64,000 bases of DNA from Pseudomonas abietaniphila (GTDB lineage Bacteria > Pseudomonadota > Gammaproteobacteria > Pseudomonadales > Pseudomonadaceae): assembly GCF_039697315.1 (NCBI RefSeq), contig NZ_CP155619.1, forward strand, positions 5,890,001 through 5,954,000. The letters run 5' to 3'. Every line of letters begins with the position of its first letter. The stretch's first letter is position 1. The position numbers and the translations under genes are program-made. The notes under the pieces are model-generated. The model was given only the letters and a program-made list of their open reading frames with translations. It did not search any database and had not been told where the DNA came from. Positions 37,858 to 62,943 of the stretch are shown one piece after another.

Positions 37858-39291
37858 TCAAGTGATCTGAATCAGCAGATCCCGCAGCCGATCCAGCGCC
37901 GGGTCGATGTCCAGCGTTTCGATCGCGCCAAATCCAAGAATCAGCCCGTCGCGTGGCGTGGCGTCGGCAAAGAAGCCTGTCAGCGGATACAGCCCGATTT
38001 CGACCTTGCGCGCCAGTTCGACCAACAGCGGCAAATTGACCGGCACCTTGAACATCACCGCCATGTGAAACCCGGCGGTCGACGGAATCACTTCCATCCA
38101 CGGTGAGAGATCCCCGGCAAACCGGGCCAGGATGCGTTCGCGACGGCCGGCGTAAATGGAGTGGCAGCGGCGAATGTGTTTGTTCAACAGGCCTTCGCCG
38201 ATGAACTTCGTCAACGCCCATTGCGGCAATGTGCAGGTGTGCCAGTCCGTCAGTTGCTTGGCCTTGATGACCGCTTCGAGAATGGCCTCCGGTAGCACGG
38301 CATAACCGAGTCGCAATTCGGGCAGCAAGGTTTTGGAGAAGGTGCCGACATAGGCAACGACACCCAGCTGATCCATGCTTTGCAGGGAATCGGTCGGGCG
38401 GCCTTCGTAGCGAAACTCGCTGTCGTAGTCGTCTTCGATGATGATCGCGCCGATCCGGTTGGCTTTCTCCAGCAAAGCCTCACGACGTGCCACGCTCATG
38501 GGCATGCCCAGCGGCATCTGGTGCGACGGCGTGACGTAGATGACATGGGCGTTTTCAGGAATCTGCTCAACGACAATGCCTTCGCTGTCCACCGGGACGC
38601 TGACCACCTCGGCGCCTTGCGCCGCGAACAGTTGGCGCGCCGGTGTGTAACCGGGGTCTTCCATGGCGACGGTGCAACCCGGTTCGAGCAACACCCTGGC
38701 GATCAAGTCGAGCGCCTGTTGCGCGCCGTTGCACACCACAATGTCATCGGCCGTGCATTTCACACCACGGGCAAACGCAATGTGCCCCGCGATGGCACTG
38801 CGCAACGGCGGCAAGCCTTCTGGTTGGCTGTAAAAGCCACGGGCCTGAGACATCTGGCGCAACGCGTATTGCGTGCAGCGTCGCCACTCATCATGGGGAA
38901 ACTGAGTCTTGGCGGTCGCGCCGCCGATGAAGTCGCAACGCAGCGTGCCTTCCAGCGTGGGGTGCCGCAGCGGCAGCGAGATGTCCTGCCATTTCTTTAC
39001 CCGCGTGGCGCTGGCCAGTTCCGAGGTGGTCTGTCGGCGCTGCGTCGGCGCATTCAGTGCGTTGACGAACGTGCCGCTGCCAATTTTGCCGACCAGGTAA
39101 TTCTCGTAGGTGAGACGGCCGTAAGTGTCCGAAATGGTCTTGCGCGAAAGGCCCAGTTGCGCAGCGAGCAGCCGGCTGGGCGGTAACTGAACGCCCGCTC
39201 CCAGGCGACCTGATTCGATGTTGTCGCGCAGTTGCTCATACAGCTGGTTCGCCAGGTCTTTGCGGCCTTGAATGACGATATGAAGTTCCAC
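37858..39291 (-). CDS. MocR/PdxR-type GntR regulator with aminotransferase domain
   Basis: A 477-residue regulator: N-terminal GntR winged helix (about 8-75: QLYEQLRDNIESGRLGAGVQLPPSRLLAAQLGLSRKTISD contains the helix-turn-helix) and a C-terminal fold-type I aminotransferase domain that binds PLP through the lysine in GTFSKTLLPELRLGY; NGAQQALDLIARVL and EDDYDSEFRY are also conserved. Start is GTG at 39291 with GGGAG 7 bases upstream. The two AhpD-like genes lie on either side; the divergent one (39506) is the likely regulated target. Confidence 0.9.
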   Translation of the reverse strand: MELHIVIQGRKDLANQLYEQLRDNIESGRLGAGVQLPPSRLLAAQLGLSRKTISDTYGRLTYENYLVGKIGSGTFVNALNAPTQRRQTTSELASATRVKKWQDISLPLRHPTLEGTLRCDFIGGATAKTQFPHDEWRRCTQYALRQMSQARGFYSQPEGLPPLRSAIAGHIAFARGVKCTADDIVVCNGAQQALDLIARVLLEPGCTVAMEDPGYTPARQLFAAQGAEVVSVPVDSEGIVVEQIPENAHVIYVTPSHQMPLGMPMSVARREALLEKANRIGAIIIEDDYDSEFRYEGRPTDSLQSMDQLGVVAYVGTFSKTLLPELRLGYAVLPEAILEAVIKAKQLTDWHTCTLPQWALTKFIGEGLLNKHIRRCHSIYAGRRERILARFAGDLSPWMEVIPSTAGFHMAVMFKVPVNLPLLVELARKVEIGLYPLTGFFADATPRDGLILGFGAIETLDIDPALDRLRDLLIQIT

Positions 39292-49885: not shown

Positions 49886-51484
49886 TCACCCCCCAAACAC
49901 CAGCCCCGACGCCTTCAACAGCTCTCGCGTATACACCTGCTGGGGATTGGCAAAAATTTGCCGCGACGGCCCTTGCTCGACCACCTTGCCGTCCTTGATC
50001 ACGATCAGGTCGTGGGCCAGGGCATGGACCACGGCCAGGTCATGGCTGATGAACAGGTACGTGAGGCCGTGGCGGATCTGCAAATCCCCCAGCAGCGCGA
50101 CAATCTGCTTCTGCACCGTGCGATCCAGTGCCGAGGTTGGTTCGTCCAGCAGAATCAGGTCAGGCTCCAGCACCAGCGCTCGTGCGATGGAAATGCGCTG
50201 GCGTTGACCGCCGGAGAACTCATGGGGATAGCGATGACGCGTGTCCGGATCCAGACCGACTTCGCGCAATACCCGAATGACCGTTTGCTCCCGCGCCTGC
50301 GGCGTGCCGATGCCGTGGGTCAACAACCCTTCGGCGATGATCTGTTGCACGGTCATCCTCGGACTGAGGCTGCCGAACGGGTCTTGAAACACCACCTGCA
50401 AGCGCTTGCGCAGAGGGCGCATCCGGTCCTGGCTGTGCAGGCTCAGTTCCTTATTGCCGAAGCGGATGCCGCCCTCGGAATCGACCAGCCGCAAGATCGC
50501 TTGCCCGAGTGTGGATTTCCCCGAGCCCGATTCGCCGACGATCCCCAGCGTCTTGCCCTTGAGCAGCTCGAAACTGACCCCGTCCACCGCCTTGATGTAC
50601 TGCCGCTGGCGGCTGAACAGGGGCTTGGGCAGGGGAAACCAGACTTTCAGTTCATCCACCGACAGCAGCGTTTGCGAATGCACGCTGGGCACGGGCTCGC
50701 CGTCCGGCTCGGCATTGATCAGCAAGCGGCTGTATGCATGTTGCGGGTGACTGAACAGGGTGTGACAGTCGGCTTCTTCGACGATTTCGCCGGCACGCAT
50801 CACGCAGACCCGCTGTGCGATGCGCCTGACCAGATTGAGGTCGTGGCTGATCAGCAGCAACGACATCCCCAGCCGCGCCTGCAACGATTTCAGCAGCTCC
50901 AGGATCTTTACCTGCACGGTCACGTCCAGCGCGGTGGTGGGCTCGTCCGCAATCAGCAGGTCGGGTTCGTTGGCCAGCGCCATGGCAATCATCACCCGTT
51001 GCCGTTGACCTCCGGACAGCTGATGGGGATAGGCTTTGAGGCGGTGCTGAGGGTTGTGGATGCCGACCAGCGCCAGCAGTTCCAAGGTGCGCGCACGTGC
51101 CGCGTTGCCTTTGAGGCCCTTATGCATCGCCAGGATTTCGCCGATCTGCTTTTCCACGGTGTGCAGCGGGTTGAGTGAGCTCATCGGCTCCTGAAAGATC
51201 ATGGCGATCCGGTTGCCGCGCAGGCCGCGTAGCTGGCTGTCGCTGGCATGCACCAGATCGAGGCCGTTGTAGCAGATGTTTCCTTGCGTGGTGACGGTCT
51301 TCTTGGGCAGCAGGCGCAGGATCGAGTGCGCCGTCACCGATTTGCCCGACCCCGACTCGCCTACCAGCGCCAGGCATTCCCCCCGGCGGATCGACAGGTC
51401 GATGCCGTGGACCACCTCGGTGCCATTGAAGGCTACGCGCAGCTTGCGGATCTCGATCAGGCTCTCATGTTTGGCGTCGTTCAC
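49886..51484 (-). CDS. yejF: Peptide ABC transporter ATPase, YejF type (two fused nucleotide-binding domains)
   Basis: A 532-residue ATPase containing two complete ABC domains. The first has GESGSGKS at 42-49, LSGGQRQR and ADEPTTALD; the second has GESGSGKST near 330, FSGGQRQR and DEPTSALD. It powers the YejB/YejE permease. Start is GTG at 51484 with GAGG about 9 bases upstream. Last gene of the tonB-exbBD-receptor-yejABEF cluster, 9 bases after yejE. Confidence 0.93.
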
Positions 51485-51493
51485 AGTCGCACC

Positions 51494-52516
51494 TCAGGTT
51501 CGGGGATCGAAAGCGTCACGGCAGGCTTCGCCGATGAACACCAAGAGGGAAAGAATCAGCGCCAGCGAACAGAATGCTGTCAGGCCCAACCACGGCGCCT
51601 GCAAATTGCGCTTGGCCTGGCCAATCAGTTCGCCCAGCGACGCGCTGCCTGCGGGCATGCCGAAGCCCAGGAAGTCCAGCGCGGTCAGGGTTGCAATGGC
51701 CCCGGTGACGATGAAGGGCAGGTAGGTGAGGGTGCTGGTCATCGCGTTGGGCAGGATGTGGCGCAGCAGCAGCGCGCTGTCGGTCAGCCCCAGCGCGCGA
51801 GCGGCTTTGACGTACTCCAGATTGCGCCCGCGCAGGCATTCGGCGCGCACGACATCGACCAGTGCCAGCCAGGAGAACAGCGCCATGATGCCCAACAACC
51901 ACCAGAAGCTCGGCTCGACGAAACCGGACAGAATGATCAGCAGGTACAGCACGGGCAATCCCGACCAGATTTCCTGCAGGCGCTGGCCGAACAAGTCCGC
52001 CATCCCGCCGTAATAGCCTTGAATCGCCCCGGCGAACACGCCGATCACCGTGCTGATGGCGGTCAGCAGCAAGGCAAACAGAATGGATACCCGTGTGCCG
52101 AACAGAACCCGCGCCATGACATCCCGTGCCTGATCGTCGGTGCCCAGCCAGTTGCGTGCGCTCGGTGGGCTGGGCGAGGGCGCCTTGAGGTCATAGTTGA
52201 TGGTGTCGTAGCTGAACGGGATGGGCGCCCAGAGCATCCATCCACCTTGCGATTCAATCAGGTTGCGCACGTAATCGCTGGCGTAATCCGGCTCGAAGGG
52301 CAGTTCGCCGCCGAAGTCGGTTTCCACGTACTGATGCAGTGTCGGGTAATACAGGTGGCCCTTGTAACTGACAATCAGGGGCCGGTCGTTGGCAATCAGC
52401 TCGCCGCACAGGCATATCAGCAGCAAGGCAACGAAGATCCACAGGGACCACCAGCCACGCCGATTGGCCCTGAAATGCGCCATTCGGCGTTGGCTCTGCG
52501 GTGAAAATTCGAACAT
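51494..52516 (-). CDS. yejE: Peptide ABC transporter permease, YejE type
   Basis: A 340-residue permease with about six membrane segments. It starts with FRANRRGWWSLWIFVALLLICLCGE, has a long periplasmic loop (residues about 50-125) and the EAA-type cytoplasmic loop VVRAECLRGRNLEYVKAARALGL. Its start overlaps the yejB stop (ATGA). In E. coli the YejABEF system imports microcin C and peptides. Confidence 0.93.
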   Translation of the reverse strand: MFEFSPQSQRRMAHFRANRRGWWSLWIFVALLLICLCGELIANDRPLIVSYKGHLYYPTLHQYVETDFGGELPFEPDYASDYVRNLIESQGGWMLWAPIPFSYDTINYDLKAPSPSPPSARNWLGTDDQARDVMARVLFGTRVSILFALLLTAISTVIGVFAGAIQGYYGGMADLFGQRLQEIWSGLPVLYLLIILSGFVEPSFWWLLGIMALFSWLALVDVVRAECLRGRNLEYVKAARALGLTDSALLLRHILPNAMTSTLTYLPFIVTGAIATLTALDFLGFGMPAGSASLGELIGQAKRNLQAPWLGLTAFCSLALILSLLVFIGEACRDAFDPRT

Positions 52517-53586
52517 CAGGCGCTCCTCGCGGAAAAGTCGATGCGCGGGTCGACCAGGGTGTAGCAGAGGTCGCCCACCAGCTTGATCAGCAGGCCGAAC
52601 AGGGTGAACAGGAACAACGTGCCGAACACCACCGGGTAGTCACGGGACACGGCGGCCTCGTAGCTCATGCGACCGATGCCATCCAGGCCGAAGATGGTTT
52701 CGATCAACAGGGAGCCAGCGAAAAACACCTCGATCAACGCCTGGGGAATCCCGGCCACCACCAGCAGCATGGCGTTGCGGAACACATGCCCGTACAACAC
52801 CCGGTTTTCGCTCAGGCCTTTGGCCCGTGCGGTGACCACGTACTGGCGGCTGATCTCGTTGAGGAAGCTGTTTTTGGTGAGGATGGTCAGGGTGGCGAAC
52901 CCGCCAATCACCAGGGCACTGACCGGCAAGACCAGGTGCCGCAGGTAGTCGCGCAGCTTGCCGAAGGTCGAGAGGCTGTCGAAGTCGTCCGACACCAACC
53001 CTTGCGCCGGAAACCAGCTCAGGTAACTGCCGCCGGCGAACACCACGATGAGCAGGATCGCGAACAGAAATGCCGGAATGGCGTAGCCGATGATGATCAT
53101 CGTGCTGCTCCAGACGTCGAACCGGCTGCCGTGGTGCACGGCCTTGCGGATGCCCAACGGAATCGAGATCAGGTAGGTGATCAGCGTCGCCCACAGGCCC
53201 AGCGACAGGGTCACCGGCAGTTTCTGGGCAATCAGGCCAGTCACCGTCGCGCCGCGAAAGAAGCTGCTGCCAAAGTCCAGCTGCGCATAGTGGGTCAGCA
53301 TCAGCCAGAGGCGCTCGTGCATCGGTTGGTCGAAGCCGTATTGGTGCTTGATTGCCTCCACCAGCGCCGGATCCAGACCTTGCGAGCTGCGGCTGACACT
53401 GCCGCTTGCAGCGACTTCACCACCGCCCCCGCCAATCCCGGCGTGCGTGCTCAAGCCCTGGACCCGCGCGATGGCCTGTTCCACCGGGCCGCCGGGCGCT
53501 GCCTGCACGATGAGAAAATTGACCACCAGAATGCAGAGCAACGTTGGAATGATCAGCAACAGGCGACGCATTGCGTAAGCCAGCAT
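52516..53586 (-). CDS. yejB: Peptide ABC transporter permease, YejB type
   Basis: A 356-residue permease starting [27 protein letters not shown], typical of DppB/YejB. A long periplasmic loop includes a [13 protein letters not shown] stretch, unusually Gly-rich. The EAA loop reads [30 protein letters not shown]. The ATG at 53586 is 1 base after the yejA stop, so the genes are coupled. Confidence 0.93.
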
Positions 53587-53587
53587 C

Positions 53588-55525
53588 TCAGCGCCCCTCG
53601 TTCTGAGCGGTGGACGGGTTCGGCGCACTGGTCTGCGGTGCCAGGCGCGCGGCCATTTCCTGATTGGTCAGCGCGGTCGGGCTGACCTGCCACCAACTGT
53701 CCAGGCCCACGTCATAGATCGGCTCAACCTTTGGCCTGCCGAATCGGTTGGCAAACACCACGGGCGTGCCTTGGGAGTAATAATTCGGAATCATGTAGAA
53801 ACCCCACAGCAGCACCCGGTCCAGTGCGCGGGCGTAATGCAGCATGTCGTTGCGGCTGTTGGCGGTCACCAGCCCGTCGATGAGCGTGTCCACGGCCGGG
53901 TTGCGCAGCACCATGGCGTTGGAACTGCCGACCTGCCGCGCGCTCTGTGAGCCAAACAGGTTGTACAGCTCGCGACCGGGCGAGAGGATCGGATTGCCAT
54001 TGTTGGGCAGCGTGACCACGATCATGTCGTAGTCCCGGGCGTTGAGACGGTTCATGTATTGCGCCGAATCGACGAGGCGAAAGTTCAGGGTGATACCGAT
54101 CTGCGCCAGCACCCGCTTGTAGGGCAACACCAGACGATCGAACCCGCCCTGGCCGTCAAGAAAGGTGAATTCCAGCGGCTGACCCGCAGCGTTCACCAGG
54201 CGGTTGTTTTGCGGATGCCAGCCAGCCTCGGCCAGCAACTTCAGCGCCTGCAATTGCTTGTCACGGATGTAGCCGCTGCCGTCAGTTTTCGGGGCCTGCC
54301 AGACCTGGCTGAACACTTCGTCCGGTATCTGCCCGCGCAGCGGTTCGAGGATGCTCAGCTCTTGCGCGTCTGGCAGCGCGGTGGCCGCCATCTCGCTTTT
54401 GGGGAAATAGGTCTGCTCACGCACATAGAAGTTGCGCATGATCTGGCGGTTGACCCACTCGAAATCCCAGAGCATGGCCAGCGCTTCACGCACGCGGCGG
54501 TCTTGAAACATCGGTTTGTCAAGGTTGAACACGAAGCCTTGCCCGGCAACCGGGCGCCGTTTGGCCAGGATGGTTTTTTGCAGGCGGCCGTCCAGCAGGG
54601 TGGGCGCGGTGTAGCCCACCACGTAACCGGAGGATGAAAATTCACGGTTGTAATCGAAGCTGCCCGCCTGAACCAGCTGCCGGGCGACGTCGGTGTCGCC
54701 ATAGAAATTCACGGTCAGGGTGTCGAAGTTGTACAGCCCGCGGCTGACCGGCAAGTCCTTGGCCCACCAGTCTTTGACGCGCTGAAAACTCACGCTGCGC
54801 CCGGCATCGACTCGGGACACACGGTACGGCCCGCTGCCCAAGGGCGGCTCGAAACCGCCGCCCTTGGTGAAGTCGCGGGTCTTCCACCAGTGCTCGGGAA
54901 GAATGCGCATGCTCGCAAGGTCCAGCGCCAACGTACGGTTGAGGTTGTTCTTGAAGTCGAAACGAATCTGTCCGGGCGCCTCGATCACCACGTCCTTGAC
55001 GTCGCCGTATAACGGCCGGTAACTGAAGCTGCCTTGAGTGATCAGGGTCTGGTAGGTGTAACGCACGTCCTCGGCGGTGATCGGTGTCCCGTCATCGAAG
55101 CGCGCGTTGGGGTTCAAATAGAAGCGTACCCACAGGTTGCCGGGGTCGCGTTCAAGCTTTTCCGCGACCAGTCCGTAAACGGTGTAAGGCTCATCGAGTG
55201 AGCGATAGGCCAGTGGCGCGTAGACCCACGTGTCGATCTGGCTCACGGAAATCCCCTGATCCACATAGGGCGTCAGGTAGTTGTACTGGCCGATCTCCTC
55301 GGCCGCGCGGCTCATCGATCCGCCCTTGGGCGCGTAAGGGTCGACGTAATCGAAATGCTGGAAGTCGGCCGGGTACTTGGGCGGTTCGCCGTACACGGTC
55401 AAGGCATGCACGGGGGCGGCAATCGCCATCGGCACCCCGGACAGCAGCGAGATGAAAAACACCGCGGTGTAGAGCAGTGCGATGCCGGGCAGCAGGCGTC
55501 GCAACGAAAGAGGGGAGGCGCACAT
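53588..55525 (-). CDS. yejA: Periplasmic peptide-binding protein, YejA type
   Basis: A 645-residue extracellular solute-binding protein (family 5). Sec signal sequence about 1-41 ([21 protein letters not shown], cleaved after PVHA-like site). The mature N-terminus has [30 protein letters not shown] and then [30 protein letters not shown], family 5 marks. AAGGA lies about 11 bases upstream of the ATG at 55525. It presents ligand to YejBEF. Preceded by a terminator-like hairpin, so its expression relative to the receptor may be tuned. Confidence 0.92.
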
Positions 55526-55571
55526 GTTTGGACAATCCTTGGTTTGCTGATCGACGCACTTCAGGCGCTGA

Positions 55572-55620
55572 GAAAAAATCCCCCGGCCGGGGAAGGTGGA
55601 CGAAACCTGAAAGCCGGGGG
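55572..55620 (-). terminator. Terminator-like hairpin between receptor and yejA
   Basis: On the minus strand CCCCCGGC (complement of 55613-55620) pairs with GCCGGGGG (complement of 55580-55587) and is followed by ATTTTTTC (55579-55572). It lies 57 bases after the receptor stop and 47 before the yejA ATG. No promoter fits in the remaining space, so partial readthrough seems needed for yejABEF expression. Confidence 0.65.
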
Positions 55621-55638
55621 CGCGATTTCGCAGAAGTA

Positions 55639-55670
55639 CCCTGACGCGCCGGAGCATGAGCGCGTCAGGG
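55639..55670 (-). promoter_or_regulatory. Perfect 11-bp hairpin after the receptor gene
   Basis: CCCTGACGCGC (55639-55649) and GCGCGTCAGGG (55660-55670) pair perfectly with a 10-base loop, 8 bases after the receptor stop. No T-run. Possibly protects the 3' end of the receptor message. Confidence 0.6.
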
Positions 55671-55677
55671 GTCAGGC

Positions 55678-58413
55678 TTAGAAGTGGTAATTCATACGTG
55701 CGAACAACGTGCGGCCCAATGGATCGGTGTAGCGTGGGTCGTAGCCCGTCTGGAAGTTGTCGGTCTGGTTGGAGAACGGCGGGTTGCGGTCAAACATGTT
55801 CTTCATACCGACATCGATATCCAGCGCCTTGTCGAAGGTGTAGCCCGCCGACATGTCCCATACCGAATAAGATGCAACGCGGGAGTTGGTGGTTCGGTCC
55901 TGATCGTAGTAACCCGTGGTGAACCGGTTAGTGATCGAAGCGCGATACGGCCCCAAGTTCCAGGTTCCAACGAGGTTGTGTTTCCAGCGCGCCGAGACGC
56001 CGGTTCCCTGGTAGTCGCCTACGCGGTCGATGTACGCGCCGCCGATGGTTTCCTGATAGTCGTAACGATCAACGTAAGTGCCTTGCAGGTTCGCGCCAAA
56101 TTGACCGTAAGGGGTGTTCGGGAACAGGTAGTCAAGGCTGACGTCCACGCCATTGGTTTTGACTTTGCCCAGGTTCGCCAAGCCAGTAATGATGTGGTCG
56201 ATCGAGCCGTCGGCTGCGCGCACAATACGATCGGCGTACAGGTCTGGATTTTCGAACACTGAAGATTCCGGAAACTCTTCGATCTGGTTGGCGATCTTGA
56301 CCCACCAAAAGTCCAGGCCAACTGACAGGTTGCGCACCGGTTGGTAGACGAAACCAAACGTAACGTTGCGGGCTGTTTCCGGTTGCAGGTCCTGATTACC
56401 ACCCGTGCGGTTGTAGAACTGCAACCCGCAGTCACGGCCCGAGTTGCCGCCAGGCTGGACCACGCCGCCGGTACACAAGCGCGGATCGTCATACTTGCCA
56501 ACGCTGTAGGTGGTGTAGTTTGGGTTGTTGAGTTCGTACAGAGACGGAGCCCTGAAGCCTTCGCTGTAAGCGCCACGGACCACCAGTTCCTTGAACGGCT
56601 GGAAGCGGAAGGAGTATTTCGGGTTGGTGGTGCTGCCGAAGTCGCTGTATTTATCGTGACGGACGGCCGCCGACAGTTCGAGGCTGTCCAGCACTGGCAC
56701 ATTCAGTTCGGCGTATTGCGCCTGAATGCTGCGGTCACCCGAGACGCTTGAGTCGGGATCGACGCCCAGGCTGTCCAGATCGCCGGCGAAGTCTTCGATG
56801 GTCTGGTGGAACTTCTCTTTACGGTATTCGCCACCCAAGGCAATCCCGGCCTCACCGGCGCCGAACCAGTTACCGATTTCGCGGCTGACGCGACCGTCCA
56901 GCGCACTGACGCGCCCGACTGAGGTGCTGTAAGCGCCGTGGTACTGATTCGCATCGATGTACGCCTGACCTTCCGGCGTTTGCGGGCCAAAGGGGTTCAG
57001 AATACCGTTGAGAATGCCATTGGTCAGAGCCGAGTCGCTGGCAAAACCGCCGGTTACGCTGTTGACGACTTTGCTCTGGTTGTACGACGCGCCGACGTTG
57101 TAATCCCAACCCGACACGTTGCCATCGAATGTCAGCAGCAAGCGTTGGGCAGTGTTTTGGTCCTTTTGCTCGCGGTCTCCTGCGGCGGTTTCACGCCAGC
57201 GGATGTCTACCGGATCGTTGGGATCGAGGGTGAAGTTGTTCGGCAGCGGGGTAATGCCGTTGCCGGGATAGAAGGGCGAAGTATTCGGCACGCTGATGCC
57301 GGTCAGTGGTTGTGGGGCGATGGTGGTGGCGTTGTTGTTGCGCGCCCAGAAGTACTCAAGGCTGACATTATGGTCGTCCGCCAATTTGCCGGTGGCCTTT
57401 CCGAAAAACGATGTTTTCTCGGTCTGCGGGATCAGGTCGATGGAATTTCGGGTGCTGTAGTTGCAGTTGCCTTGGCCTGCAATCAGGTTCGGGCCGTTAC
57501 AGTTGCTGGCAGACAACGGGTTGGTGCTCGGGCCGCCGTTCTGACTGTAGTTGGCCGGGAACGGGGTCGGTGAGGTCGAATCCAGCCCTCGGCCAGGTAC
57601 GTAGTCCTTGGCGAACGTACGGTCATTGGCGTCCAGATTTTGCTGGGTCGCGTAGTTGAACACGCCCATGACGTTGAACCGGTCTTGCTCCAGATCGCCA
57701 AAGCCCCAGCTGCCGCTCATGTCTTTGGTGCCGCCGCCACCGCTGGCGTCGGCCATGCTGCCACCCAGTTCCAGGTTGCCCTCAGTCAGGGATTTTTTGG
57801 TGATGAAGTTGATCACGCCGCCAATGGCGTCCGTGCCGTAGAGGGCCGAGGCGCCGTCCCGCAACACTTCGACACGGTCGATGGCGGCAAAGGGAATGGT
57901 GTTCAGGTCGACGGCGCCACCTTGAGAGTGTGTGCCGGACATCGAGTTGTTGGCCAGACGGCGGCCGTTGAGCAGGATCAACGTCTTGTTCGCACCGATG
58001 CCACGCATATCTGCAAACGACGCGCCGCCCGTCGCACTGCCAATCGAGCCGGCGGCGTTATCGATGGAGTTACTGCCGGTAATGCGCGAAATGATCTCGG
58101 CCGTCGTGGTGACGCCCTGCTTCTTCAGGTCTTCGGTGCGCATGATGGTGATCGGCACAGCGGTTTCAGCATCCACCCGGCGAATCGCCGACCCCGTGAC
58201 TTCAACCCGCTTGAGCTGAGTGGTCGCGGGCACTGCGGCGGCAGCCGGAACGGCGGCCTCGCTGGCTGGTGCTGCCTCTACGGAGGTATCGGTGCTGTCC
58301 GCCGCGTGTGCCGAACTCATGCCCACGGCCAGGGCGCAGATCAATGCGCGCGGGTGCCGTCGTACTGCAACAACAAGAGGCTTGAGGGTAAAACCAGGAA
58401 AACTCATCAGCAT
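55678..58413 (-). CDS. TonB-dependent outer-membrane receptor
   Basis: A 911-residue receptor. A Sec signal ends near VGMSSAHAADS; an Ala/Pro-rich stretch and QLKRVEVTGSAIRRV (likely TonB-box region) follow; then the plug (VPITIMRTEDLKKQGVTTTAEIISRI, LILLNGRRLA, DRVEVLRDGASALYGTDAIGGVINFITKK) and a 22-strand barrel with a terminal phenylalanine (MNYHF). It belongs to the Caulobacter/Xanthomonas-like receptors of carbohydrates and peptides rather than classic siderophore receptors, an impression from motifs. Encoded between its own exbBD/tonB and yejABEF, so a peptide-type ligand is inferred. Start ATG 58413 or 58407; ribosome binding site is weak. Confidence 0.9.
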   Translation of the reverse strand: MLMSFPGFTLKPLVVAVRRHPRALICALAVGMSSAHAADSTDTSVEAAPASEAAVPAAAAVPATTQLKRVEVTGSAIRRVDAETAVPITIMRTEDLKKQGVTTTAEIISRITGSNSIDNAAGSIGSATGGASFADMRGIGANKTLILLNGRRLANNSMSGTHSQGGAVDLNTIPFAAIDRVEVLRDGASALYGTDAIGGVINFITKKSLTEGNLELGGSMADASGGGGTKDMSGSWGFGDLEQDRFNVMGVFNYATQQNLDANDRTFAKDYVPGRGLDSTSPTPFPANYSQNGGPSTNPLSASNCNGPNLIAGQGNCNYSTRNSIDLIPQTEKTSFFGKATGKLADDHNVSLEYFWARNNNATTIAPQPLTGISVPNTSPFYPGNGITPLPNNFTLDPNDPVDIRWRETAAGDREQKDQNTAQRLLLTFDGNVSGWDYNVGASYNQSKVVNSVTGGFASDSALTNGILNGILNPFGPQTPEGQAYIDANQYHGAYSTSVGRVSALDGRVSREIGNWFGAGEAGIALGGEYRKEKFHQTIEDFAGDLDSLGVDPDSSVSGDRSIQAQYAELNVPVLDSLELSAAVRHDKYSDFGSTTNPKYSFRFQPFKELVVRGAYSEGFRAPSLYELNNPNYTTYSVGKYDDPRLCTGGVVQPGGNSGRDCGLQFYNRTGGNQDLQPETARNVTFGFVYQPVRNLSVGLDFWWVKIANQIEEFPESSVFENPDLYADRIVRAADGSIDHIITGLANLGKVKTNGVDVSLDYLFPNTPYGQFGANLQGTYVDRYDYQETIGGAYIDRVGDYQGTGVSARWKHNLVGTWNLGPYRASITNRFTTGYYDQDRTTNSRVASYSVWDMSAGYTFDKALDIDVGMKNMFDRNPPFSNQTDNFQTGYDPRYTDPLGRTLFARMNYHF

Positions 58414-58570
58414 GGTAATTTCCGACTTATTCCAGATGTTATTGAAATGGCCTTGTGAGCCCTCGTTGCTCCGACGCGGTTGTGGCGGTCGGGAAATCCA
58501 CTTTTCAAGCAAGCCGCTCCCCTCCATGGCAAAACCACGGACGGCCGTTACATCGGGAGTTGGGTGTGCA

Positions 58571-58591
58571 GGGCTGCGTTCGGCGCAGCCC
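58571..58591 (-). promoter_or_regulatory. Intercistronic hairpin between exbD and the receptor gene
   Basis: GGGCTGCG-TTCGG-CGCAGCCC, 8-bp perfect arms, 20 bases after the exbD stop, in a 197-base gap. No T-run follows on the minus strand. May stabilise the upstream mRNA or attenuate. Confidence 0.55.
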
Positions 58592-58610
58592 TCAGTTCAT
58601 GGCGCGTTGA

Positions 58611-59012
58611 TCATTTGGAGGTCATCACGGAAATCTTCGTGATCCCCGAGCGCTCGATCGACGCCATGGCCTTGGCCACCTGGCCATAGTTGACGCTGGT
58701 GTCCGCCTGCAATTGCACGCGCACCTCAGGGTCCTTGGCCTTGACGTCCTTCAGGCTGATCTCCAGTGACTCCGGGGCGATCTCGGACTTGGCGAGGTAG
58801 AACTTGCCGTCCTGATCGACGCTGACCACCACCGGGTCCTTCTTCTCGGCGGGCGCCACGGCGTCGGTTTTCGGCAGGTTGACCTTGATCGCGTTGGTCA
58901 TCAGCGGCGCGGTGACGATGAACACCACCAGCAGCACGAGCATCACGTCCACCAGCGGCGTGACGTTCATTTCGCTGAGCACTTCATCGCTGTCTTGAGT
59001 GGAGAACGACAT
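58611..59012 (-). CDS. exbD: ExbD/TolR-family biopolymer transport protein
   Basis: A 133-residue protein with one N-terminal membrane helix containing the essential aspartate (D22 in PLVDVMLVLLVVFIV) and a periplasmic domain ending VMTSK. Part of the proton-driven ExbB-ExbD-TonB energiser. Its start overlaps the exbB stop (ATGA). Confidence 0.94.
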   Translation of the reverse strand: MSFSTQDSDEVLSEMNVTPLVDVMLVLLVVFIVTAPLMTNAIKVNLPKTDAVAPAEKKDPVVVSVDQDGKFYLAKSEIAPESLEISLKDVKAKDPEVRVQLQADTSVNYGQVAKAMASIERSGITKISVMTSK

Positions 59013-59719
59013 CAGCTCGCCTCCCGCACAGTCTGGCTGTGTTTGCTGGCAATCGGCTGCCGGTTGACGGCGAAGGCGCTGCGTTGGGCGAGGGCGTCGA
59101 AGTCGTGGGCGAAATCATCCATGTCAGCCACGGCCAGCTTCAGGCGACGCAGGAAGAAGTTGTAAATCAGCACCGCGGGTACCGCGACGGCGATGCCGAC
59201 GCCGGTGGCAATCAGCGCATGGCCGATGGGACCCGCCACGGTTTCCAGGCTAGCCGAACCGCTGGCACCGATGCTTTGCAGCGCTTCCATGATCCCCCAG
59301 ACCGTGCCGAACAGACCGATGAAAGGCGCGGTGCTGCCGATACTGGCAAGGATCGCCTGGCCGGCTTCCAGCGAGCGGCGCTCCTTCTGGATCTGCTGGC
59401 GCAGGTTGCGTTCCAGACGGTCCGAGCGGTTGATGGTGTGGGCCAGTTGCTGAGTGGTGCGCGGTGATTCGTCGACCGCCATGGCCTCGAACCCGCTGTT
59501 GGCAATGCGCGCCAGCGAGCCTGGGTACTGAGTGGCATGCTCGGCAGCAGTCAGCAGATCCGGTGCTGTCCAGAAGGCCTTGGTGAACTGTTTGTTCTGG
59601 GTTTTCAATTTCAGGTACTGGGCGGATTTGATCAGCAGCAGTCCCCAGCTCAACACTGAAAACACCACCAGTGCCCAAAGCACGCCAGGGACAATCATGG
59701 AAGAGAGCGATTCGTTCAT
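59012..59719 (-). CDS. exbB: ExbB/TolQ-family proton channel protein
   Basis: A 235-residue MotA/TolQ/ExbB protein with three membrane segments (VPGVLWALVVFSVLSWGLLL; IGSTAPFIGLFGTVWGIMEAL; IGHALIATGVGIAVAVPAVLIYNFFL). The signature GLFGTVWGIM and the third segment with Thr are conserved. Forms the pentameric motor with ExbD. Located 50 bases after tonB on the same transcript. Confidence 0.94.
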   Translation of the reverse strand: MNESLSSMIVPGVLWALVVFSVLSWGLLLIKSAQYLKLKTQNKQFTKAFWTAPDLLTAAEHATQYPGSLARIANSGFEAMAVDESPRTTQQLAHTINRSDRLERNLRQQIQKERRSLEAGQAILASIGSTAPFIGLFGTVWGIMEALQSIGASGSASLETVAGPIGHALIATGVGIAVAVPAVLIYNFFLRRLKLAVADMDDFAHDFDALAQRSAFAVNRQPIASKHSQTVREAS

Positions 59720-59769
59720 GGTTACACCTCACCAGCTATATAAGGGTTGTCAGTCGTTTGCCTGCCGGG

Positions 59770-60597
59770 TCATTCCGGCAACTTGAAATCGATGGTCTGG
59801 GTCGCGAAGCCTTCAATTGGTGTGTCGCCGCGCTTGGCCGGAATGAACTTCCAGTTGCGCACCGTCTCCACCGCCGCGTCGTCCAGAACCTGTTTGCCGC
59901 TGGACTTGGTCACCTCGACACTGCCTGCGCGCCCGTTGGGCAGCACCTTGATGCGCAGAATCACGCGACCTTCCATACCTTTACGCAGCGCCGCGCCGGG
60001 GTATTCCGGTGGCGGGTTGCCGAGGCTGGCCAGCCCTGAAATCGCTGCCGACTCCTTGACCGGTGCCGCGGGCGCAGCCGGTGCAGCAGGCGCGGGCGTC
60101 GGTGACGGAGCGGGTGGCGCTGGCGTACTCGGTGCTGCGGGCACTGGCGGTGCGGGCGGCGCGGGCTTCTTCACCGGCTCCGGTTTTTTCACCGGTTTGG
60201 GCTTTTCCACCTTGGGCTTTTCGACCGGCTTGGGCGGCGGCTTGACCGCGTCCGGATCTTCCACCGGTTGCTCCGGTTCAGGTGGCGGCGGGGGTGGTGG
60301 CGGCGGCGGAGGTTCGGGGGGCGGAGGCTCCGGTGCCGGCGGTGTTGGACTAGTCAGCTCGACGGTCATCTCGGGCACTTGCGGCGCAACTTCCGGAACA
60401 TCGGCTTTTGCTGTTTGTATGGCCCACCAGATGGCCCCGTGAATAAGGACCGAGGCGGCAATCAATAACACCACCTGTGGCCTGTTCAATCCGCCAGGGC
60501 GTGAAGTGTTTTCCTTGAAAGGTACACTCGGCCAGACCCCGGAAGTGTCATCCGGAGACGGATCGGGCAAGGCTTTCATTTTTACCGCGTCGTTCAT
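59770..60597 (-). CDS. tonB: TonB energy-transducing protein
   Basis: A 275-residue TonB with a single inner-membrane anchor (about 41-61, VVLLIAASVLIHGAIWWAI, including the conserved His53), a very Pro-rich periplasmic spacer with Pro-Pro and Lys-Pro repeats (about 85-185), and the C-terminal TonB domain with PEYPGAALRKGMEGRVILRI. GAGGGAG lies 6 bases before the ATG. First gene of the cluster; a private TonB for the adjacent receptor is likely. Confidence 0.93.
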   Translation of the reverse strand: MNDAVKMKALPDPSPDDTSGVWPSVPFKENTSRPGGLNRPQVVLLIAASVLIHGAIWWAIQTAKADVPEVAPQVPEMTVELTSPTPPAPEPPPPEPPPPPPPPPPPEPEQPVEDPDAVKPPPKPVEKPKVEKPKPVKKPEPVKKPAPPAPPVPAAPSTPAPPAPSPTPAPAAPAAPAAPVKESAAISGLASLGNPPPEYPGAALRKGMEGRVILRIKVLPNGRAGSVEVTKSSGKQVLDDAAVETVRNWKFIPAKRGDTPIEGFATQTIDFKLPE

Positions 60598-61833
60598 TAA
60601 AGCTCCCTCGGGTCATTGAAGGGCAATAAGGTTCCGTTCAAACATTTCGTGAATGTTCGAATCCTTGGTGCGTGCACTTTCGTGAGGCGCAAAACACCCG
60701 TAAGCGGACAAAAGTGCGTCAGCTCTTTATCGGAAGAGAGGGTGCAGTGTGGGTTATGGAGACGACATTGATATTCCCTGGTTTCTTGTTGTGTACATGG
60801 ATGTACGTTGCTGTGTCGAACTGCCTACAGAGGATTAATAGCAACCGCTATGCCAGCAAAGCGCTCTGCGGCGAGGTTTTCGACGCATTCTGTGCAGATG
60901 TCGCATTCCTGTAACTTTTTATCGAATCACCGGTTAACGTATTTACGTACACGGGTGAACCATTGGGACCAATGTTAAATTGGGCGCGAGTCTGCCCGAT
61001 GAGCGTGGCGAATAACGTTCGCGAGAGCCCATGATTAAATGAACGGCCGGCGGTGCACCAAACTCGTTAATCGAGATTCGAATTGGTGCGTGATGGTTTA
61101 AATGTACATGGCTAATGTCCTGATTAAAGATGACTGTAGGGTCACTTACTTGTCGGGTGCCCTTTTTAAGGGCGAGCAATAGCGTCCATCGGCAAGTGAT
61201 GGCTATTTAATATTCTTACTGTTTTCTATACGGGAATGTCCCGTTTATATAATTTCTTGTTGTCAGGTCGTTAGTGTCTTTTCCATCATCAAGTGCTGGA
61301 GTCGAATATCACGATTAACCGAAAGCAAAAATAAAAAGAAGCGCACGCGTGGGCACGCGAGACCTCAGGAATTGTGAGTAGTAAAAATCAGACGCTAAAC
61401 AAGGACGCTTTGACGACGAGGCGACAGAACGGCGGCGTAGTGACCAAGGCGGCTTGAAGCGGAGCAGCGGGCACCGAGGGAAACGGCAGGGGTGTGGCGG
61501 GACACGGCTGAAGACAGCAGGGACAGGTCAGACACGAATCGAATTCCTTATCGACGGACGACAAACTGCTGGTTTGCGTCCTGCACTGTTAATGGACAGG
61601 GTGCTGTCCGTTTCCTGCACGTTGGTGCGTGTTGCGCACCGATTGGCAGCGTAGACTCACGGCTTTGTGGGGCGTTTGGGTCCGTTGGTGGTACTGACGT
61701 TCCACTTTTGAAATACCTTGAAAGAAATGTGCCAAAAAGCTGTCTTTCTGTAACATTTTTGATGCGGCGGCCGATTGACAGCACCCTCGGCTGCATCGAC
61801 TGCCGATGTTTCCTGAATCCTGAGAGGGTTTTG
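60598..61833. other. 1.2-kb AT-rich divergent intergenic region
   Basis: The longest gap in the window outside repeats, between tonB (minus) and the DUF2817 gene (plus). From about 60600 to 61400 the sequence is clearly AT-richer than flanking genes. Besides the palindrome at 60637 it holds several small hairpins: GCACCAA/TTGGTGC (61055-61089) enclosing CTCG/CGAG, GCCCTT-TTT-AAGGGC (61159-61173) and ACGGGA-ATG-TCCCGT (61230-61244). Short open frames at 60672-60914 and 60943-61179 lack ribosome binding sites. A small RNA or remnant of lost genes is possible; nothing definite. Confidence 0.55.
60637..60661. promoter_or_regulatory. Palindromic candidate operator upstream of tonB
   Basis: AACATT (60641-60646) and AATGTT (60652-60657) flank a TCGTG centre, and outer TTC (60637-60639) and GAA (60659-60661) extend the dyad with one mismatch. 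It lies 40-64 bases before the tonB ATG. It does not match a Fur box (GATAAT repeats). The 5-base centre and 9-base half-sites suit a dimeric repressor. Confidence 0.55.
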
Positions 61834-62943
61834 ATGAGCCAGTTTTTTCCTGAACGCCCCGGTTATCGCCAACTGCGTGAACGTTTTCTGAAGGCTGCGA
61901 ACGATGTGGGCGCGACCTTGAATGAATACCCGCATCCGCTCCGAGGGCCCTTTGGCGAAACGCTGTTCACTGATGTGGCCTGGATCGGTGCACCGGATGC
62001 CCGCAAGGTGCTGGTGGCGTTAAGTGGCACACATGGCGTGGAGGGATATTACGGTTCCGACTGTCAGAGTCGCTGGCTTGAGGGTTTGAAGGGCCGCACG
62101 CTGCCTGAAGGCGTGGCGGTGCTGATGATTCACCTGATCAACCCGTGGGGCACGGCGTGGGTGCGCCGCGTTAACGAAGACAATCTTGACCAGAACCGCA
62201 ATTACCTGGATTTCAGCCAACCGTTGCCCGACAACCGTGCCTACCACGATGTGCATGCCTTTTATAGCTGCGAGCAACTGCGCGGGCCGCAGCGTGATCA
62301 GGTCGATGCGCTGTTCAACGCCGCTGTCGCCGAGCGCGGCTGGTCAGGCTTGATGTCGGTGGTGGAAGCCGGGCAATACGCGTTCGCTGACGGGCTGTTC
62401 TACGGCGGAACGGGGCCGAGCTGGTCGAACCGGACGCTGCGCGCCATCGTCGAAAAACACCTGAACGGCGTCGAGGTGGCGGCCTGCTTCGACCTCCACA
62501 CCGGGGCGGGGGATTACGGTCATCCGATGCTGATGAGCATCGTGGAATCTGCCTACCCTGCGCTGGCCGATGCCCAGGCGCTGTTCGGGCCGTGGTTGTT
62601 CACCCTCATCACCGGGGCCAACAAGGTCAGTGAAACCGGTGTGGCAGCGACCTCGACGGGGTACACCTCGCAGATGCTGCTTGACGCGTTGCCGGGTGTG
62701 CACCTGATGCCGTTCGTCATCGAGTGCGGCACATATCCCGGCGCGACCGTGCACGGGCATTTGCGTGACGATCACTGGCTGCACCTTCACGGCGACCCTC
62801 TGGACGAAACGGGCCGCGCGATCAAGCAAGGGTTGCTGGAGCAGTTTTACCCGGCCGACCCGGACTGGCAGGAAGTGGTGTGGGTGAGGACGCGGCAGAT
62901 CTGGGAGAGGGCATTGGCGGCGTTGCCGGGCATCGCACGCTGA
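61834..62943 (+). CDS. DUF2817 family M14-type metallopeptidase-like protein
   Basis: A 369-residue cytoplasmic protein (no signal peptide) of the zinc carboxypeptidase clan. Zinc ligands are visible: H67 and E70 in SGTHGVEGYYG and H222 in CFDLHTGAGDYG. Start ATG 61834 (MSQFFPERPGYRQLRERF) with GAGAGG 7 bases before; the frame runs far upstream without other candidates. DUF2817 is annotated as an M14 deacylase/carboxypeptidase relative. Divergent from the TonB/Yej cluster, so it could process an imported peptide-like compound, which is inference. Confidence 0.87.
   Translation: MSQFFPERPGYRQLRERFLKAANDVGATLNEYPHPLRGPFGETLFTDVAWIGAPDARKVLVALSGTHGVEGYYGSDCQSRWLEGLKGRTLPEGVAVLMIHLINPWGTAWVRRVNEDNLDQNRNYLDFSQPLPDNRAYHDVHAFYSCEQLRGPQRDQVDALFNAAVAERGWSGLMSVVEAGQYAFADGLFYGGTGPSWSNRTLRAIVEKHLNGVEVAACFDLHTGAGDYGHPMLMSIVESAYPALADAQALFGPWLFTLITGANKVSETGVAATSTGYTSQMLLDALPGVHLMPFVIECGTYPGATVHGHLRDDHWLHLHGDPLDETGRAIKQGLLEQFYPADPDWQEVVWVRTRQIWERALAALPGIAR

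Follow-up and report, generated by a model that had tools for sequence, protein, structure and literature searches.

Inner-membrane importers of the YejABEF and Npp types admit several peptide antibiotics, and the way in which large peptides cross the outer membrane before reaching such importers is often unexplained. To our knowledge, no described YejABEF or Npp operon contains a gene for an outer-membrane receptor or for a TonB motor. Here, we describe a Pseudomonas locus that contains both. It lies within bases 5890001–5954000 of a 6.55 Mb one-contig genome; this stretch of 64 000 bases is called the window, and positions below are counted along it unless the genome is named. On the minus strand, tonB, exbB, exbD, a TonB-dependent receptor gene, yejA, yejB, yejE and yejF follow one another in uninterrupted order, as established from open reading frames (ORFs) and their Pfam and NCBIfam domains. 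Judged by titles and abstract openings, searches of open-licence PMC text listed no paper on this arrangement. We think it probable that the cassette is a horizontally spread, self-contained, TonB-driven importer of a peptide-like ligand, with the receptor as its exchangeable specificity part.

Conservation of the cassette

Relatives were collected by a receptor scan with one genome per species, of which the best 80 of 564 receptor-like loci were used; the nearest receptor among these 80 is that of Pseudomonas sp. LS-2 (95%). The 80 include 32 Pseudomonas loci of what we call type A, with receptor identities of 66–95 per cent. All eight genes are present in order at 28 of the 32, three of which (L034, L043 and L073) have contig ends inside or near tonB; the remaining four (L046, L049, L051 and L070) are interrupted by contig ends. 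In a second set, which overlaps the genomes of the 32 (L163 is probably from the L030 genome), the eight genes are in order at 15 of 15 loci tested. At L158 (genome G119), the receptor is broken into two frames, with in-order matches to the remaining seven genes. Across 149 Pseudomonas genomes, the type-A receptor, an ExbB of at least 86 per cent identity and the tonB leader described below each occur in 25, and the 25 are identical; the receptor is intact in 24 of them and in two pieces in one. The eight-gene cassette is a real unit. A preliminary description of this DNA had proposed a self-contained trans-envelope importer and had named in advance a lack of co-conservation as the outcome that would speak against it; the genes proved co-conserved, which supports the proposal.

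Three P. aeruginosa plasmid records contain the receptor, and the two that were read (L026 and L028) carry the cassette, its tonB being annotated there and too diverged for detection by tblastn. From the patchy occurrence, the plasmid copies and the changing flanks, taken without a species tree, we infer that the cassette has spread horizontally.

Another group of ten loci, type B, carries receptor-yejABEF without tonB-exbBD. FecR was matched at each of them, and nine show a further receptor upstream (Pfam at L058). The type-B receptor (64–66% identity) is found in 14 of the 149 genomes, ten of these carrying type A as well, and has no match in the window genome. That genome does contain, in the region of genome position 6170514 (L172:4905–10444), a yejABEF set without an adjoining receptor, which is 61–78 per cent identical to that of the cassette and resembles the type-B transporter. 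These sets, together with a terminator-like hairpin and a long gap before yejA, would suit ordinary adjacency, with tonB-exbBD-receptor and yejABEF as independent units that merely travel together. However, the eight genes stay together at 28 of 32 loci despite changing flanks, type B retains the receptor beside yejA, and Salinicola retains the parts, save a yejA that was not detected, in another order; we regard independent units as quite unlikely.

Outside Pseudomonas, 39 receptor loci were compared. A YejB/E-like permease lies nearby at 19, exbB/exbD at six and both at four (Acinetobacter, Salinicola and two Collimonas). The frequency of 19 in 39 compares with about 2 per cent expected from six YejB-like matches in the 6.55 Mb of one genome; many of the 39 loci come from Oxalobacteraceae and represent one common locus, so the 19 are not independent. 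In Acinetobacter baumannii (L027), the receptor is located between three SBP-type genes with a peptide ABC transporter and tonB-exbB-exbD-exbD; the record is labelled a plasmid but measures 4.09 Mb and is therefore probably a chromosome.

Apparent replacement of the receptor gene

Compared with Pseudomonas sp. NFR16 (L048), the window has seven genes at 88–99 per cent identity and the receptor at only 74 per cent, whereas the window receptor is 96 per cent identical to that of LS-2 (L029). DNA identity drops past the signal-peptide region at about 58180 and recovers at about 55634. The receptor tree places the window and L029 with P. quercus and two further genomes (support 95), whereas the tree built from six other genes puts them inside the graminis clade (support 100). 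Constraining the graminis clade in the receptor tree is rejected (approximately unbiased test, p = 4.9e-5), as is constraining the window, L029, P. quercus and the two genomes to group in the other-gene tree (p = 2e-80), both clades having been picked after the identities were known. Judging from these sequences, the receptor alone appears to have been replaced in the window and one relative, L029.

A receptor-only replacement, like the broken receptor of G119, would fit escape from toxins or phages using it, on the view that the cassette chiefly lets in peptide antibiotics and is kept for another benefit. Phazolicin is carried by both YejABEF and NppA1A2BCD (PMC10128002). A single swap plus a single broken copy nevertheless make few cases, and the entry of a poison cannot alone maintain the cassette, for which a benefit is still required. 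We hold this explanation to be decidedly unlikely.

Protein families and the probable ligand

Pfam identifies TonB_C, MotA_ExbB, ExbD, a receptor plug (PF07715) and barrel (PF00593), SBP_bac_5, two BPD_transp_1 domains and a double ABC ATPase. The TonB_C, ExbB and ExbD domains are side by side and all exceed the Pfam cut-off; the NCBIfam TonB C-terminal model is also passed, and the NCBIfam full-length TonB, ExbB and ExbD equivalogs all score below cut-off. For ExbB and ExbD, the NCBIfam TolQ/TolR models outscore the ExbB/ExbD models, yet they too stay below cut-off. The microcin C permease cut-offs of NCBIfam are passed by YejB (519 versus 445 bits) and YejE (485 versus 439 bits). The receptor has no N-terminal signalling domain by Pfam and a FecR query found no match in window positions 38001–64000, so the features of a FecA-type receptor are not seen. 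There are 11 plug-domain genes, six TonB_C matches and six ExbB/TolQ/MotA-type matches in the window genome, and the motor of the cassette is thus one of several.

The top matches of YejA in PDB are YejA proteins (E about 1e-115, query residues 83–657). Sinorhizobium meliloti YejA was crystallised with short peptides (PMC10128002). The peptide-like cargo put forward in the preliminary description is the likeliest, given the YejA family and the relatives with peptidases or peptide-type ABC importers next to them. The Salinicola locus, at which the homology search used detected no yejA, is rearranged into yejBEF with an M3 oligopeptidase, followed by tonB-exbBD-receptor with an M13 peptidase, and this arrangement lends modest support to a peptide ligand.

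Metal complexes are the cargo of many known TonB-dependent receptors, and the ligand could be a peptide metallophore (methanobactin-like) produced by other organisms, with the receptor and YejA binding a metal–peptide complex as MbnT and MbnE do. MbnE binds methanobactin and is paired with MbnT, a TonB-dependent transporter (PMC7558416). MbnE (5icq) ranks with the top PDB hits of YejA (E 1e-109), but E. coli-type YejA scores slightly higher (391 versus 371 bits). No convincing Fur or Zur site was found before tonB in the window and 16 relatives, by a weak scan (among ten other receptor genes in this genome, only two gave a Fur match equalled by at most four of 100 shuffles). No metal gene recurs next to the cassette across the loci read, and the ArsP-type permease downstream adjoins it in the graminis clade only. 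We consider a metallophore unlikely.

Organization of the cassette

The features are listed in table 1, with gene starts revised by the start codons common to relatives. Gene order and strand agree with the preliminary description for all eight genes, and several starts had to be moved, from 58527 for the receptor and from 55657 for yejA. The cluster end previously placed at 60661 is inside the untranslated leader of tonB, whose ATG is preceded by an in-frame stop. The tight spacing described earlier applies to five of the seven junctions, which are no longer than 50 bases (tonB-exbB 50, exbB-exbD an overlap of 1, yejA-yejB 1, yejB-yejE an overlap of 1 and yejE-yejF 9); it does not extend to exbD-receptor (about 197 bases) and receptor-yejA (about 152 bases).

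Table 1. Positions of the cassette genes, associated non-coding elements and the divergent neighbour.
Feature	Position in the window	Strand	Description
yejF double ATPase	49886..51484	-	Pfam and NCBIfam
yejE permease	51494..52516	-	Pfam and NCBIfam
yejB permease	52516..53586	-	start about 53586, from relatives
yejA	53588..55525	-	periplasmic binding protein, SBP family 5, YejA/MbnE type; start about 55525, from relatives
Terminator-like element	about 55579..55596	-	GC hairpin and T run in the receptor-yejA gap; by eye also in many of 21 aligned relatives
TonB-dependent receptor	55678..58413	-	911 aa, plug and barrel; start about 58413, by starts common to relatives
Conserved untranslated stretch before receptor	58411..58534	-	49 of 124 positions invariant in 16 sequences
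exbD	58611..59012	-	133 aa
exbB	59012..59719	-	235 aa, proton channel
tonB	59770..60597	-	275 aa, Pro-rich, TonB_C domain; conserved leader upstream
tonB leader RNA	60595..60664	-	hairpin 1 covarying; predicted hairpin 2 would pair with ribosome-binding site and bases just 5' of start codon
DUF2817 gene	61834..62943	+	P. graminis clade neighbour; start about 61834

Terminator-like sites are in no excess overall (14 versus 12.5 in shuffles), so the case for the hairpin before yejA comes from its visible recurrence in aligned relatives. L036 and L109 lack it, and in four koreensis-type loci its place is taken by a long inverted repeat. Given this layout, the cassette may make more than one transcript.

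Leaders of tonB and of the receptor gene

The tonB leader comprises 70 bases through the start codon: hairpin 1, then the nearly invariant TTATTGCCCTTC...GAGGGAGC..TAATG, which RNAalifold predicts can form hairpin 2 covering the ribosome-binding site. In 27 sequences, two-sided changes occur in five of the seven pairs of hairpin 1, and the covariation count of the whole structure is reached by none of 500 shuffles (slid controls 0–3). When 40 distinct sequences are aligned to the model, an alignment that leans to the model, there are two-sided changes in six of 17 pairs (slid controls 1–4). These changes stem from few lineages. Hairpin 2 alone has a z score of -2.5; the whole leader, at -0.8 to -1.8, is no better than many shuffles. 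The motif is present once per genome in 25 of the 149 genomes, always before the tonB of the cassette (two copies end at a contig edge after the start), under strict filters that weak copies may escape. It has no Rfam match up to E 1. According to this structural model, the leader hairpin would probably hold down tonB translation until some signal opens it.

Other readings of the leader were rejected. It is not a longer TonB or a coding upstream ORF, as the frame is shifted in four of 33 sequences and ten of the 33, among them the window, lack an in-frame start downstream of their last stop; for sigma-54, the spacing is wrong by eye. The valine codon GTA lies within codons 4–6 of tonB in 31 of 33 sequences (by eye), as compared with 5.7 per cent GTA among all valine codons in the cassette genes. 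Genes in general often begin with AT-rich codons. An alternative pairing of the leader with codons 4–6 is possible, purely as an idea.

The conserved stretch before the receptor has no covarying or stable consensus structure and no Rfam match. Its core, GGGGAKCGGCTTGC, has 79 matches in 66 of the 149 genomes, as compared with about 17 for the backward control; 25 are at the receptor, one per cassette genome, and 54 are elsewhere. At the 17 of these 54 that were read, the rest of the receptor leader is absent, and several of them are in one conserved gene.

Genomic neighbourhood

The flanks differ by lineage: SIR2-DUF2817 in the graminis clade; DNA polymerase II, GST and DUF1615 in koreensis-type genomes; and TldD-TldE-ABC exporter in P. 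asuensis and the P. aeruginosa plasmids. The ArsP-type permease gene downstream, a neighbour in the graminis clade only, is not supported as a ninth operon gene. Upstream of the cassette, the approximately 1.2 kb that separate the tonB leader from the start of DUF2817 (60670–61830) are poorly conserved.

The preliminary description had suggested that the DUF2817 protein, which we take to be a peptidase from an M14-like motif, may act on the cargo. A sequence search of the PDB with this protein gave no match up to E 1. Its gene adjoins the cassette at five of the 32 type-A loci, some of which are short. It is present in 12 of 35 same-genus relatives, namely four of six with the cassette and eight of 29 without it, and is adjacent to the cassette in one of the six. 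Eight other DUF2817 loci were read; there is no cassette and no SIR2 beside them, and one has a 30 per cent yejF-like ATPase match. A general cargo-acting role for DUF2817 is not supported, and DUF2817 is rejected as a core part, being a neighbour in one clade only.

Among the loci tested, P. asuensis and two P. aeruginosa plasmids carry the extra TldD/TldE pair with an ABC exporter next to the cassette; P. saxonica has the exporter alone. TldD matches in Oxalobacteraceae were discarded because the housekeeping yhdP-tldD neighbourhood explains them (Pfam, one locus, L080), and TldD was rejected as a general partner. As candidates for a hidden precursor peptide, small ORFs at the TldD/TldE loci were listed by script; compared by eye and without a homology test, none seemed common to the loci.

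Some further features of single loci can be mentioned. On plasmids L026 and L028, the TldD/TldE-like peptidases and the ABC exporter are upstream of the cassette, an RND pump and a GNAT gene are downstream, and mercury-resistance genes are close. In P. asuensis (L056:12871–15567), a second, diverged receptor lies between the receptor and yejA, divided into one ORF for the plug and another for the barrel; it is either a broken or a split gene. Toxin-like RES-domain genes occur near the cassette as an Xre/RES pair in P. saxonica (L052:3476–4635), and a RES ORF lies between the two receptors in type-B loci (L058:9277–9780).

Proposed mode of action

In the importer that we propose, the receptor, powered by its own TonB-ExbB-ExbD, would carry the ligand across the outer membrane; YejA would capture it, and YejBEF would move it into the cytoplasm. 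Peptidases of the host genome, different by lineage, may then process it. The leader hairpin would keep tonB translation low until a signal arrives. The direction of transport, the peptide cargo, the function of the RNA and shared regulation are what we infer from these sequences. More tentatively, the cassette could be a mobile importer with its own RNA control, in which the leaders before tonB and the receptor gate the production of the motor and the receptor, perhaps triggered by the imported ligand, and lineages retarget it by swapping the mature receptor only; this is possible, though we find it doubtful.

Several observations count against the peptide importer as proposed. YejF, although the YejF model is its best, scores 729 bits and thus falls below the NCBIfam cut-off of 834. 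The terminator-like hairpin and gaps of about 150–200 bases argue against one simple transcript. The peptidase genes that adjoin the cassette in some lineages differ from lineage to lineage, and none is core. Hairpin 2 hardly varies, so that covariation neither supports nor refutes it, and in ten single-sequence folds it is in six of the best folds, as compared with nine for hairpin 1. The leader was not found at any of the eight diverged loci tested (P. asuensis, 5P_3.1_Bac2, two P. aeruginosa plasmids, Salinicola, Acinetobacter and two type-B loci). The shared origin of many Oxalobacteraceae loci has been noted above.

Comparison with known systems

In the phazolicin study, Tn-seq could not pinpoint the outer-membrane route (PMC10128002). 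A receptor and motor paired with YejABEF would provide a direct genetic handle on this step, and the receptor swap offers two natural alleles for the mapping of specificity. The leaders may represent a new kind of TonB-system control.

The cassette resembles YejABEF and NppA1A2BCD in its YejA-family binding protein, two permeases and fused double ATPase. NppA1A2BCD has two YejA-like proteins, as has a separate Npp-like set of the window genome (genome position 4928516, L173), whereas the cassette has a single yejA and so does not correspond to that type. Oligopeptide uptake dependent on TonB, as proposed here, is known from RagAB/SusCD of Bacteroidota, an unrelated lineage; unlike these systems, the cassette has no SusD-like gene among its eight (Pfam).

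In the FourU thermometer of haem receptor genes, a hairpin hides the ribosome-binding site. Leader RNAs of this kind, including those of chuA and its kin, act on the translation of an outer-membrane uptake gene (PMC3660397 and PMC9002310). The leader of the cassette differs in that it precedes tonB, has an additional covarying hairpin and is without an Rfam match.

With methanobactin import by MbnT-MbnE, the cassette shares the combination of a TonB-dependent receptor and a YejA-family periplasmic protein, and it adds a full inner-membrane importer and a private TonB-ExbBD. The parts and their logic are thus known from other systems; what is new is their combination, its cohesion, the private leaders and the receptor swap.

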